Positions 138-4,094 of a stretch of DNA of 35,933 nucleotides are shown piece after piece (position 1 is the stretch's first letter; the number at the start of each line of letters is the position of its first letter). The position numbers and the translations under genes are program-made. The stretch lies in NCBI GenBank assembly GCA_937925815.1, contig CALAMQ010000136.1, positions 1 through 35,933 on the forward strand, written 5' to 3'. The notes beneath the pieces were generated by a model. It was not told the DNA's origin. It searched no databases and was given only the letters and a program-made list of their open reading frames with translations. The DNA comes from an uncultured Granulosicoccaceae bacterium (GTDB taxonomy: Bacteria; Pseudomonadota; Gammaproteobacteria; CALCKW01).

Positions 138-1544
138 ATGCACACTCAGCGAATGAAACGCCGGCAATTCATCAAACTCGCTTCTGGCCTCTTGGCCGCA
201 CCCTTTGCTTCTTTGACAGGTGGTGTCGCCGCTGCACAGGCCAACATCTCGCCACTTAGACTGTTGACCTTGGTCGAATCTTACGGCATCCCAACTTCGA
301 CCCGACGAGACATATGGGTAAGCAGCACAACTGGCGACTACCCACTGTCGGGTAATGAGCTAGGCACCATTCTGACCCCGCTTGCTGCTTACAAAGACAA
401 CCTATTGGTGTGCACCGGCAACAACATGGACAGCCTGAGCACAACTGGCAACAGCCGAACGCACCATCACATGGCGATGCACACCCTCGCTGCAAGTGCA
501 GCCATTCAAGGGGCAAACGCAAACGCCAAAATAAAACACGAATCGATCGACTACCGGATTGCGCAATATTTAAACAACGAGCGAGGTCTGGGGCGAGTTT
601 TCCCACACCTGTTCTTCACCAACGTATCCCAACCTAACGACACAACTTTCTGCTACAACGAATCCGGTGATCAAATTCGCTCGATGGCGAATCCAATCAA
701 CCAAGCGAACGCCATATTCTCAACCGATGCATCGATTGTGAACGCCCAATTCCAGAACGACACCCAGCAAAGCATTTTCTCTCTAGTGCACGACCAGGTG
801 GTTGCGCTGCGCGGTCAGCTCAACAGCGCGAGTTCCTCTGAAGTCATCGATGCATACCAATACAGTGTCAACGACTTAGCTGATCAAATTCAAAGAGGCA
901 GTGAGAAAGTCTGTGGATACCCGAGTAATTTCAGCGGTTACCCAACCACAAGTTTGGCACAGTCAACCGTCTCAACTCCGGCCATCTTCCAGAACATCAA
1001 GCAGGCTTTTGCCTGCGACCTGACATCAAGCCTCACGTATGCAATTGGTGGCGAGAAAATCAATCAGTTGAAACACGGAAGCTTGTACAGCGCGAGTGAA
1101 CACAATGACGCAACAGTCAATTCTTTGTTGTCCAAGAATCAACACGCCATGTCACACCAAGTGAGCGAAGCCGCTGACAAATCTCACGAAGTTGTGAAAG
1201 TACATCACATGGAGGAGCTGGCCTCGCTTCTAGATGAGTTGAGCGTTACACCAGATTCGGATGGAAATTCTCTGCTTGATAACACAGTCGTTTTTGCGAC
1301 GTCGGCAATGGCCAACAATACTCATTCTAAAAATGACTACTGCCAACTGATCGTGGCCGGCAAGAACACGAACTTCAGAGGCGGCTATCACTACGACCTC
1401 TCAGGTCACACCAACAACGATCTTCTCACAACTCTTGCACAAGGCATGGGACTCCCAGATGACAGCTTTGGTGGCCACAACAAAAGTGGCAACTACATTG
1501 CCAGTTTAAACAATGGCCCAATCACAAAAATGCTGTTGAGCTAG
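138..1544 (+). CDS. Tat-exported DUF1552 family protein
   Basis: Predicted secreted protein of 468 residues, function unknown. The N-terminus carries a twin-arginine signal: KRRQFIK at residues 7-13, then a hydrophobic stretch rich in Leu and Ala ending near an AAA-Q site. This suggests export of a folded, possibly cofactor-bearing, protein. The body fits DUF1552: an early LTPLAAYKDNLLVCTG block, a His-rich HHHMAMH segment, and a C-terminal run with DGNSLLDNTVVFATS and FGGHNKSG. DUF1552 is thought to be related to the DUF1501/alkaline-phosphatase-like group. It is typically encoded next to a DUF1592/DUF1588 cytochrome-like protein, as here, 80 bp downstream. The ATG at 138 was chosen because GAGG lies 9 nt before it; the ATG at 153 also keeps the Tat motif. 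Base composition is clearly more AT-rich than the rest of the window. Confidence 0.85.
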   Translation: MHTQRMKRRQFIKLASGLLAAPFASLTGGVAAAQANISPLRLLTLVESYGIPTSTRRDIWVSSTTGDYPLSGNELGTILTPLAAYKDNLLVCTGNNMDSLSTTGNSRTHHHMAMHTLAASAAIQGANANAKIKHESIDYRIAQYLNNERGLGRVFPHLFFTNVSQPNDTTFCYNESGDQIRSMANPINQANAIFSTDASIVNAQFQNDTQQSIFSLVHDQVVALRGQLNSASSSEVIDAYQYSVNDLADQIQRGSEKVCGYPSNFSGYPTTSLAQSTVSTPAIFQNIKQAFACDLTSSLTYAIGGEKINQLKHGSLYSASEHNDATVNSLLSKNQHAMSHQVSEAADKSHEVVKVHHMEELASLLDELSVTPDSDGNSLLDNTVVFATSAMANNTHSKNDYCQLIVAGKNTNFRGGYHYDLSGHTNNDLLTTLAQGMGLPDDSFGGHNKSGNYIASLNNGPITKMLLS

Positions 1545-1624
1545 ACGCTGAATCCCTATACCCATTTGCCAAGACATGCACACCCGCTGGAGTCGTCGCA
1601 TGCAGAGCATAGAGAAAATCCAAA

Positions 1625-3511
1625 ATGAGCATCAAAAACGAACTGGTTCGCGTCTCAGTATCTTTGCTAGTTGCTTTAATTCTAGCCGGCTGCGAAAGTG
1701 CTGTAGTGACTGACAGAGTCGATTCCAACGCGTCAGAATCAAACCAAAGCCCCGACGAACTCGCAACACCCGACCTGTTCAGGGGGGAAGCTAATTTTGA
1801 CGCCAACTGCACAACTTGTCATGGCGCAAATGGCGACAGCATATTCAACCCAATTGCGATCAACAGCTGTTTGACTGCTGATTGCAGCAGCATTGAAACG
1901 CTTTCTGAATACATCGATCAAAACATGCCACAAGGCAACGCCACGGCTTGCACGCTCAATGGCGAGGACAGCTGCGCACTGACTGTGGCTGCCTACATAT
2001 TCAATGGGTTCACAACCGACTCGCCAGATCCCATCATCAAAGCGACTGACGGCATCCAATCACCACTGGCCAGGTTAACAAACAACGAGTATGTCAACAG
2101 CATCAGAACGTTACTCGATCTTGATCAGGACTCTGCCAATATGGACGCCGCCGTCGGGACATTGGCGACAGATTCAGTTGTCAAAGGCCTAACAAGTGAC
2201 TCCAGCACACAATTGCTTACACAAATATCGATGTCGGGCTATGCCCTGATGGCAGACGCTGCTGGCGATGATTTTCTTGACCAAGTTGTGCTCGAAAATG
2301 ACCTGAAATCGAAGCTGGGCTGTGGAAATCAAAGTTCAATACAGGCCTGTGCAGAAAACTTTGGCACAGATCTCATCAGCAAAGCCTACCGCCGGCCTAG
2401 CACGGCAGACGACGAAGCAACTGTCACCAGCATCTACGAGACGTTCGAAGAACACAACGAGACACATGGACGACCGCTGTCAGATTTCGAACTGCAGCTC
2501 TCTACGGTCAAAGCCATTTTAAAGTTCGTTTTTCTGTCGCCGGAATTCTTGTTGATTGTGGAGAGCGGTGAGATCACTGCGGCCAATAGCAATGCGGCAT
2601 CAACCACGCTTACCGATTATGAAATCGCAACGCGGATGGCGTTATTTTTAGCCGGCACCCTGCCAGACGACGCCCTGTTGAACGACGCCAAGAACGGCAG
2701 ACTGAGCAACGCAAGCGTGCGCGCAGAGCACGCAGACCGTTTAATGAACAGTGATGTTGGCATCAATCAATTTAACACGCTCATTCTGAACTGGCTGGGC
2801 ATTGACCCGTCGTTGGCAGACGAGGCCAGCATCGCCGACATGACAGCCTTTATCGAAGACTGGTTTACCACTGAGGCCCCATTCAGCGATCTCTACCAAG
2901 CCCCCGTGTCAGTGGAGAATATCAACGGCTCGCGCACAGAGATGCCTGTTGGGGTCCTCGGCTTACAAGCTTTTGTGGCCTCACACACTAGCTTTCCAAC
3001 ACCGAGCTTTATCACCCGTGGTGTCTTTTTCGTTGAGCGCCTGTTGTGTGAAGCGCTCCCAGATGACATCCCAGCTGACGCGCTGGATGCGGGCGAGTTG
3101 ACCCCCGTAGAGGTGTTTTTTCAGCACGCCAATCAGGATTGTGCAACCTGCCACAAAGTCGTGGATAACTACGGCGCAGCATTTCAACAGTTCGACGCAG
3201 AGACTTCACTGTTCTCCGGGGCACAGGACTTCGGTACCAGCTTTGACCTGTACGATATCGGCGATGTCACCACCAGCGTCTCAACGCTAAGCGATCTGGG
3301 TCAAGTTGCGGGTTCCAGCAACCGCGCTTCAGGGTGCATGGCCGATCTTTGGTACCGCCATTCGCTGCGCAGAGACATAGACTCCAGCGGCAAAGACGAC
3401 GACCCACTGATTCAACTGCAACTCGCGTGGTTGGACTCCGGCGCCAAGAGCATGAAGGATTTGTTGCGCGCCATCGTGACGTCGGACAGATTTATCACGC
3501 TGTATTACTAA
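1625..3511 (+). CDS. c-type heme lipoprotein with DUF1587/1595/1592/1588/1585 domains
   Basis: Predicted envelope-anchored lipoprotein of 628 residues, partner of the preceding DUF1552 gene. The signal peptide ends in a lipobox, LAGC, with Cys23. A cytochrome c domain follows, with the heme site CTTCH at 62-66 and a candidate axial Met in QNMPQGN near residue 104. Then come the blocks of the Planctomycete-type multi-DUF proteins, in order: LTNNEYVNSIRTLL (DUF1587-like), KAYRRPSTADDEA (DUF1595-like), a stretch from LTDYEIATRMALFLAGTLP (DUF1592-like), GVLGLQAFVASHTS plus a second CATCH at 506-510 (DUF1588-like), and a C-terminal DUF1585-like segment with FRDIDS-type spacing. The second CxxCH is a conserved part of DUF1588 and may or may not bind heme. 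Function is unknown; the co-occurring DUF1552 protein suggests a joint extracytoplasmic redox role, which is inference. Confidence 0.85.
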   Translation: MSIKNELVRVSVSLLVALILAGCESAVVTDRVDSNASESNQSPDELATPDLFRGEANFDANCTTCHGANGDSIFNPIAINSCLTADCSSIETLSEYIDQNMPQGNATACTLNGEDSCALTVAAYIFNGFTTDSPDPIIKATDGIQSPLARLTNNEYVNSIRTLLDLDQDSANMDAAVGTLATDSVVKGLTSDSSTQLLTQISMSGYALMADAAGDDFLDQVVLENDLKSKLGCGNQSSIQACAENFGTDLISKAYRRPSTADDEATVTSIYETFEEHNETHGRPLSDFELQLSTVKAILKFVFLSPEFLLIVESGEITAANSNAASTTLTDYEIATRMALFLAGTLPDDALLNDAKNGRLSNASVRAEHADRLMNSDVGINQFNTLILNWLGIDPSLADEASIADMTAFIEDWFTTEAPFSDLYQAPVSVENINGSRTEMPVGVLGLQAFVASHTSFPTPSFITRGVFFVERLLCEALPDDIPADALDAGELTPVEVFFQHANQDCATCHKVVDNYGAAFQQFDAETSLFSGAQDFGTSFDLYDIGDVTTSVSTLSDLGQVAGSSNRASGCMADLWYRHSLRRDIDSSGKDDDPLIQLQLAWLDSGAKSMKDLLRAIVTSDRFITLYY

Positions 3512-3567
3512 GTCTTTTGAAGATCGCGGCTGCGGGAAGAACAACCCCAGCCGCGGTATTCAAGACT
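3511..3567 (+). terminator. Long imperfect hairpin right after the DUF1592 gene
   Basis: AGTCTT(TT)GAA at 3511-3521 pairs with TTCAAGACT at 3559-3567. Inside it, CGCGGCTG at 3525-3532 pairs perfectly with CAGCCGCG at 3548-3555, with a further GGG/CCC near the loop. It starts at the last base of the TAA stop. There is no downstream U-tract, so it is either a non-canonical terminator or an mRNA 3'-end stabilizing stem. Confidence 0.5.
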
Positions 3568-3977
3568 CACCTCGGTAAATTCAAGGCGGCAAAAAGCAAG
3601 CAAGGCACCATGCTCTCTTCTATGGCATGAGGTGTCCGCCGCGTCGAAGCTGTACGTCAAACCCCAAGTGGCGTCTTAACCACGCTGCACTCATCGGTTG
3701 ATCCACGCTCTGCACTGTTTTCAAAGACGCTGGATCCCTCAGATCACTCAGTCGCCGACACCGCAAATTCAGCGCCCACAGCTCTCGGTGTGCGACATCA
3801 AGCCGGTGATGCAACAGCACGGGGACAACGCAATCAGCTTTGCTTGGATGCGTCGTAGCGCAGAACCCATTCAGTCAGCAAAAGACTGCTCGGAGTTGGT
3901 GGTTCGAGCGCTATGCCCAAAGCGTCACACACAATTGCTGTACGTGAGCTGGGTTAAACAGAACACATCGCTCAAAC
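3568..3977. other. Gene-free stretch between the DUF1592 gene and tRNA-Thr
   Basis: About 410 bp in which I see no convincing gene. The open frames here are short, lack Shine-Dalgarno sites and recognizable motifs, and the longest one (3698-4099, plus strand) runs through the tRNA gene. A small stem, CACC-ATGC with GCAT-GGTG, can form at 3606-3634. No repeats of the tRNA 3' end were found by eye. Confidence 0.5.
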
Positions 3978-4009
3978 AAAAAAGGCCCAGCCTCGTGCGG
4001 CTAAGCCTT
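3978..4009 (-). terminator. Intrinsic terminator of tRNA-Thr
   Basis: On the minus strand an 11-bp stem (positions 4009-3999 with 3992-3982, two G-U pairs, loop GCACGA) is followed by a run of six T. It lies 10 bp past the encoded CCA. This is the only canonical U-tract terminator I found in the window. Confidence 0.85.
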
Positions 4010-4018
4010 AGATTTAAA

Positions 4019-4094
<76 letters not shown>

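Follow-up and report, generated by a model that had tools for sequence, protein, structure and literature searches.

Cbp2D of Cellvibrio japonicus, which has the layout CBM2-X158-FN3-X183-X132, is among the closest described counterparts of the gene pair discussed here. In this bacterium, six genes, cbp2D and cbp2E among them, were needed for growth on insoluble cellulose, and the authors suggested a new mechanism of direct cutting (PMC12542752). DUF1587 was annotated at the start of the X132 domain of Cbp2D, and X132 carries one CxxCH (PMC8981238); Cbp2D and X132 were also described in PMC10916295, where the legend of Fig. 1 gives DUF1687 instead of DUF1587 at the X132 start, which is probably a misprint. 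A second literature describes the PSCyt3/PSD proteins of planctomycetes such as Rhodopirellula and of Verrucomicrobia, in which the PSCyt3 genes were already reported to adjoin a conserved family of unknown function (PMC5615132). The pair we describe consists of a DUF1552 gene followed by a cytochrome gene and occupies positions 138-3511 of contig CALAMQ010000136.1 from an uncultured Granulosicoccaceae bacterium, a stretch of 35,933 nucleotides that was analysed as a whole and is called the window below.

We propose that the pair belongs, as a compact and strongly diverged form acquired horizontally, to a carbohydrate-linked module of an X132 cytochrome and DUF1552, which includes the Cbp2D-type proteins, and that it works in the manner set out below. 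We give this reading as a whole a probability of about 0.5. The assignment of the pair to the module is firm, and a role of the module in carbohydrate use is likely. Judged by its domain content, the copy in the window is a stripped-down, minimal variant.

An earlier note, made from the sequence alone, had described a twin-arginine translocation (Tat)-exported DUF1552 protein next to a lipid-anchored protein with a cytochrome c site. Both genes were confirmed, as open reading frames (ORFs) at 138-1544 (plus strand, 468 residues) and 1625-3511 (plus strand, 628 residues). The profile searches that it had suggested as a check placed both proteins in the named families, and the matches were not due to chance. 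The first ORF matches Pfam HXXSHH/DUF1552 and starts with a twin arginine, while the second has the lipobox LAG-C23, a cytochrome c domain and both haem motifs, with the residues exactly as claimed. The features of the cytochrome gene are as follows.

1625-3511, plus strand: coding sequence of a lipid-anchored two-haem cytochrome of 628 residues with the X183 + X132 layout (Pfam, PDB profile matches, alignment).
1682-1693, plus strand: lipobox, L20-A-G-C23 (sequence).
1781-2014, plus strand: X183-type cytochrome c domain (PDB matches).
1808-1822, plus strand: haem motif CTTCH, residues 62-66 (sequence).
2072-3493, plus strand: X132 block (Pfam, alignment).
2072-2269, plus strand: DUF1587, residues 150-215 (24.3 bits against a cut-off of 23).
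2348-2563, plus strand: DUF1595, residues 242-313 (27.2 bits, below the cut-off of 34.2).
2609-2812, plus strand: DUF1592, residues 329-396, with the C-terminal half missing.
2951-3199, plus strand: DUF1588, residues 443-525 (Pfam).
3140-3154, plus strand: second haem motif CATCH, residues 506-510, inside DUF1588 (C506, C509 and H510 invariant in 29 of 29 proteins).
3275-3493, plus strand: DUF1585, residues 551-623 (Pfam).

As in Cbp2D, X183 is followed by an X132 region with DUF1587 and one CxxCH. The window protein differs from Cbp2D in being lipid-anchored and about 500 residues shorter, in having a partial DUF1592 and in lacking CBM2, YceI/X158 and FN3; by its profile matches, it is an X183 + X132 protein without a carbohydrate-binding module (CBM), YceI or FN3. 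The best PDB matches of its N-terminal domain were 8q1v (E 5.5e-6) and 8q1w (6.5e-6), whereas the Cbp2D X183 domain, 7b21, was matched more weakly (0.034), and the extra cysteine pairs 82/87 and 109/117 align with those of the solved X183 domains. Both entries were deposited as 'putative lipoprotein', and from the deposited name, the length and the cysteine pattern we take them to be TtX183A and TtX183B, X183 domains of TERTU_2913. The TtX183A and TtX183B domains of Teredinibacter turnerae were described in PMC10916295. TERTU_2913 and TERTU_3803 of this bacterium contain X183 and X132 domains, as does the window protein; TERTU_2913 is also without CBMs, but it has three X183 domains, compared to one in the window protein, and an X122 jelly roll, which the window protein lacks. 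When the X183 domains of C. japonicus and T. turnerae were searched for, there was no near-identical match in the genomes searched, and the clear matches had 32-52% identity.

The window protein has the same PSD3-PSD5-PSD4-PSCyt3-PSD2 domains as the planctomycete proteins, although the planctomycete-like members seen here have PSCyt1-type N-terminal cytochromes and the window protein an X183-type one. We infer that the CAZy domain X132 as a whole is this block, because of the DUF1587 annotation of Cbp2D and the Pfam layout of the Cbp2D-like proteins in the loci examined; PSD2 itself did not reach E 0.01 in the four Cbp2D-like proteins checked with Pfam. The module of the window had been called complete in the earlier note. 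The five DUFs do occur in the given order, but DUF1595 is below its cut-off and the DUF1592 match covers only positions 1-68 of the 128 of the profile. In the alignment, W390 and R441 are 51 residues apart in the window protein, compared to 79-87 in 28 relatives, and this gap of about 33 residues means that a nearly invariant NxxLAxxYG stretch has been lost from DUF1592. A fold search with a model of the 628-residue cytochrome gave no Foldseek match below E 0.2 and VIA-align Z scores of at most 4.8; as the model was long and in part of low confidence, these weak matches do not indicate a new fold.

At every locus examined, the DUF1552 gene was the immediate neighbour of an X132/PSD cytochrome gene and read in the same direction, so the co-occurrence of the families, stated in the earlier note, holds, and they form a conserved unit. 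The cytochrome gene comes first everywhere except in the window and in L093. Of 369 genomes sampled from the class Gammaproteobacteria, 5 had DUF1552, as did 12 of 148 genomes of one family, apparently Cellvibrionaceae (a label inferred from named relatives), and 15 of 63 Thiothrix-family genomes, one of them with a weak partial match. The module was also present in one Myxococcota contig (L038). The recurrence claimed for gammaproteobacteria and myxobacteria was therefore seen here, while its occurrence in Planctomycetes, and also in Verrucomicrobia, rests on published work (PMC2754498, PMC5615132). Close relatives of the window copy were not found in the collections searched. A scan of the genome contigs with the window DUF1552 as a single protein gave no relative, and a diverse alignment contained no stretch conserved enough for scanning.

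Ten Cellvibrionaceae loci (L080-L085, L106-L109) have the order cbp2E-like, cbp2D-like, DUF1552: a protein of about 600 residues with CBM2 and YceI is followed by one of about 1050 residues with CBM2, YceI, X183 and X132, and then by DUF1552. The two proteins match Cbp2E and Cbp2D in domain content, which was verified with Pfam, in part, in L080, L081, L083 and L084, the others being assigned by length, N-terminus and similarity. Operons homologous to that of Cbp2D continue into DUF1552 in the same bacterial family, C. japonicus itself being outside the genome set. In the window, by comparison, the DUF1552 gene is first and there is no CBM2/YceI-like neighbour, with the contig ending 137 bp upstream.

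In other relatives, the cytochrome block is fused to further domains. A protein of 1649 residues (L086:10855-15801) has three cytochrome c domains, PKD, a GH5 cellulase and the X132/PSD block, and the Myxococcota protein (L038:6133-9855) combines a GH18 chitinase with CBM2, a cytochrome and the PSD block; both are followed by DUF1552. The block is fused to three CBM2 domains in Thiothrix and relatives (L008, L009), and to CBM26 and a glucose/sorbosone dehydrogenase domain in L010 and L087. In Thiothrix-type loci, a gene for a flavocytochrome c sulfide dehydrogenase-like flavoprotein comes after DUF1552 (L033:11286-12593; also L032, L034, L035 and L036). These fusions and operons link the module to carbohydrates and to redox chemistry. 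The substrate, given as unknown in the earlier note, is consequently not wholly so, and the pair can hardly be called self-contained, since in relatives it is combined with a flavoprotein or with CBM, YceI, glycoside hydrolase or sugar-dehydrogenase domains. The statement that the pair has no established function is outdated for the cytochrome, which shares the X183 + X132 layout of Cbp2D, a protein needed on insoluble cellulose (PMC12542752).

Some other features of these loci were observed. The flavoprotein gene of the Thiothrix-type sulfur oxidisers has no cytochrome subunit of its own next door, and the cytochromes there carry CBM2. In two unrelated loci, the gene immediately after DUF1552 encodes an ankyrin-repeat protein that apparently has a signal peptide (L007:924-2765 and L089:2796-3929). 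DUF1552 is split over two frames in Methylocucumis oryzae (L037:7889-9158) and in a Cellvibrionaceae-type locus (L112:10724-12048), by a frameshift or a sequencing error. A sulfatase gene (L092:4784-6601) lies beside a PSCyt1-type PSD/DUF1552 pair.

For the DUF1552 protein, the following features were assigned.

138-1544, plus strand: coding sequence of an HXXSHH/DUF1552 (PF07586) protein of 468 residues (E 1.9e-25, 90.6 bits against a cut-off of 30).
138-242, plus strand: Tat signal peptide, MKRRQFIK, R8-R9, its end approximate (sequence; RR invariant in 36 of 36 proteins).
465-467, plus strand: His110, invariant, at the predicted position of the superfamily nucleophile (Thr/Ser/formylglycine; alignment, profile comparison).
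1143-1157, plus strand: H336-AMS-H340, the HxxSH part of HXXSHH, the last His of the motif being Gln here (alignment).
1323-1325, plus strand: His396, invariant, after the strand that bears [S/T]DHG in the superfamily (alignment, fold comparison).

Nine residues (R8, R9, G50, H110, D138, T296, H336, H340 and H396) are invariant in all 36 DUF1552 proteins, and the window copy keeps all five invariant His/Asp residues (H110, D138, H336, H340 and H396). The literal HXXSHH is absent from the window copy, which has HAMSHQ, but this is no fair ground for exclusion from DUF1552, as only H336 and H340 of the motif are invariant and its last His is not. The window copy also has A390 where the [D/E] of a [S/T][D/E]x[G/A]-like motif is expected.

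Searching the PDB with the DUF1552 sequence profile gave only matches to Tat signals and noise, with no significant chain, and a comparison of folds was therefore needed. An AlphaFold2 model built on 36 DUF1552 homologues (predicted local distance difference test 73.7, predicted template modelling score 0.78) predicts an alkaline phosphatase/sulfatase fold. The VIA-align Z scores to alkaline phosphatases, nucleotide pyrophosphatases/phosphodiesterases (NPPs) and sulfatases were 14.8-16.4 over 240-280 residues, with 16.4 to PafA (5too), 16.2 to the Xac NPP (7mw8) and about 15 to many sulfatases. Foldseek was in agreement, its best match being a phosphonate monoester hydrolase (E 3.3e-4). In a profile-profile comparison with phosphodiesterase/sulfatase-type proteins of related genomes, the E value was 1.9e-6. 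The controls gave values of 0.19 (reversed profile), 0.43 (PSD profile) and 0.75-0.99 (eight column shuffles).

The order of the key elements is also common to DUF1552 and this superfamily (PafA, NPP, choline sulfatase, cofactor-independent phosphoglycerate mutase (iPGM)). In the global alignment, H110 aligns to the catalytic Thr, and HxxxxxxxxTG of Thiothrix DUF1552 has the spacing of the sulfatase motif CxPSRxxLLTG. The two His of HxxSH are spaced like the Asp and His of the metal-binding DxxxH in phosphodiesterase/iPGM-type enzymes, and this HxxxH lies 49-57 residues ahead of the [S/T][D/E]x[G/A]-like motif where one was found; in the proteins used for comparison, DxxxH precedes SDHG by 41-62 residues. 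DUF1552 lacks the Asp with which strand 1 ends in the superfamily and mostly has P-[NDG]-G there. A His-rich metal site in DUF1552 is plausible.

A rival reading is that DUF1552 has a hydrolase or transferase activity of the kind usual in the superfamily, for example in polysaccharide desulfation or dephosphorylation, and that the cytochrome has a separate redox task in the same degradation pathway. Apart from the fold itself, this is consistent with the sulfatase gene near one DUF1552 locus (L092), with the sulfatases near PSCyt genes in Verrucomicrobia (PMC5615132) and with the 7 to 23 matches per genome to PF01663, a profile of the superfamily, in the genus of the window organism. However, an invariant His stands in place of the Ser/Thr/formylglycine nucleophile, the strand-1 Asp is absent and DxxxH has become HxxxH, and standard superfamily catalysis by DUF1552 therefore looks unlikely. 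Unlike ordinary sulfatases, moreover, DUF1552 lies beside a cytochrome gene at every locus examined. We regard a conventional activity as unlikely but retain it as a rival.

Redox catalysis by DUF1552 itself, which the proposed reading includes, is speculative and rather doubtful. The earlier note had proposed a joint redox function and an oxidoreductase; a redox role is well founded for the cytochrome partner, but 'oxidoreductase' cannot be read from the predicted DUF1552 fold. To our knowledge, the alkaline phosphatase/sulfatase superfamily includes no known oxidoreductase, so this would be a new activity. More specifically, and at the tentative end of what we propose, DUF1552 could be a redox metalloenzyme on an alkaline phosphatase fold, with the nucleophile replaced by His and a His-rich metal site, and could be the catalytic partner, so far overlooked, with which Cbp2D-type cytochromes take part in an oxidative attack on polysaccharides that is free of lytic polysaccharide monooxygenases (LPMOs).

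The published idea for Cbp2D is that it donates electrons to LPMOs, and the isolated X183 domain of Cbp2D can reduce two bacterial LPMOs, slowly (PMC8981238). If this were the role of the module in general, LPMOs would be expected alongside it, but AA10 LPMOs were found in only 4 of the 36 module-bearing genomes searched. None was found in the other 32 or in the genome of the window organism, which is 99% complete, and 7 of the 10 genomes with the cbp2E-cbp2D-DUF1552 arrangement (G881, G901, G928, G871, G847, G815 and G967) also gave no AA10 match. The deletion of lpmo10B was milder than that of cbp2D or cbp2E (PMC12542752), and the T. turnerae domains did not fit electron donation to LPMOs (PMC10916295). 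LPMO reduction was therefore rejected as a general role of the module; we consider it very improbable as the explanation, with a side role possible where an LPMO is present.

In the mechanism proposed for the X132 cytochrome and DUF1552 module, DUF1552 would fold and take up its metal or metals in the cytoplasm before export through the Tat system, and could then act on a sugar or polysaccharide through the putative histidine-rich metal site on its alkaline phosphatase/sulfatase scaffold. Electrons would pass from the haem of the X132 block to that of X183 and on to a periplasmic or surface acceptor, this direction being the presumed one. In relatives, the module may be held on the polysaccharide by the CBMs or glycoside hydrolases to which it is fused. 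In the window organism, the lipid anchor would keep the cytochrome on the cell and, as a CBM is absent, soluble oligosaccharides at the envelope are probably acted on. The gene pair, its export signals, haem motifs and domain identity and the operon and fusion links of its relatives can be read directly from the sequences, while the fold is predicted and the metal site, the redox activity of DUF1552, the electron direction and the substrate are conjectural.

Several points weigh against this reading. The superfamily of the predicted DUF1552 fold is hydrolytic and not redox, and no activity of any DUF1552 or X132 protein was found in the literature. No substrate was found for the X183, X122 and PQQ-like domains of T. 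turnerae, whose misfit as LPMO donors was mentioned above (PMC10916295). For the window copy in particular, the missing CBM, the 33-residue loss in DUF1592 and the position on the longest branch of the tree, at 2.7 changes per column, weaken any function assigned by analogy. Its placement in the tree is unsure.

The genomic setting suggests how this copy arrived. The genome has a single copy each of DUF1552 and DUF1588, and no DUF1552 was found in the genomes of three congeners, of which one is only 79% complete. The G+C contents of the two genes are 50.1% and 52.4%, compared to 59-70% for the other genes of the window. The pair sits between the contig end and a tRNA gene:

4019-4094, minus strand: tRNA-Thr(tgt), beside the pair (three congeners share the coaX-tRNA-Thr arrangement).

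On the 3' side of this tRNA gene, the window (3512-4094) has different genes from the congeners where these could be read (L143, L145), and the site is a possible integration hot spot. From the low G+C content, the differing tRNA-Thr flank and the absence of a match in the congeners, the pair looks horizontally acquired at a variable site. No att-like direct repeats flanking the pair were found within the window, whose left end is missing at the contig end, promoter and terminator scans were at chance level, and a plasmid search gave no match.

An acquired island can also decay, and the window copy could be a remnant with no present function. This could explain why the DUF1592 loss takes nearly invariant positions, why HXXSHH (HAMSHQ) and the LTG motif are degenerate, why the copy has the longest branch and why it was not found in the three congeners. 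However, both ORFs are full length, with no stops or frameshifts, and the Tat signal, the lipobox, both haem motifs, both extra cysteine pairs and the five His/Asp residues have been kept. As these motifs are retained at about 25% identity, selection on the window copy is likely and decay is quite improbable.

Relative to the literature found, it is new that DUF1552 is linked to Cbp2D/Cbp2E, that its predicted superfamily fold has a changed active site and that AA10 LPMOs are often lacking. No mention of DUF1552 together with Cbp2D was found in the literature, and no earlier link was found between the planctomycete PSCyt/PSD-DUF1552 pairs and the CAZy domains X183 and X132, which are joined here. 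The Cellvibrio work, in which Cbp2D and Cbp2E weigh more on insoluble cellulose than the LPMO, led to a suspected new cleavage mechanism (PMC12542752). That mechanism has no assigned catalytic domain, and DUF1552, as the recurrent third gene, is a definite candidate, in which five residues could be mutated. The His at the predicted catalytic position points to a putative new kind of enzyme. If the proposed reading is true, many 'unknown' gene pairs of planctomycetes would become candidate carbohydrate-redox genes.

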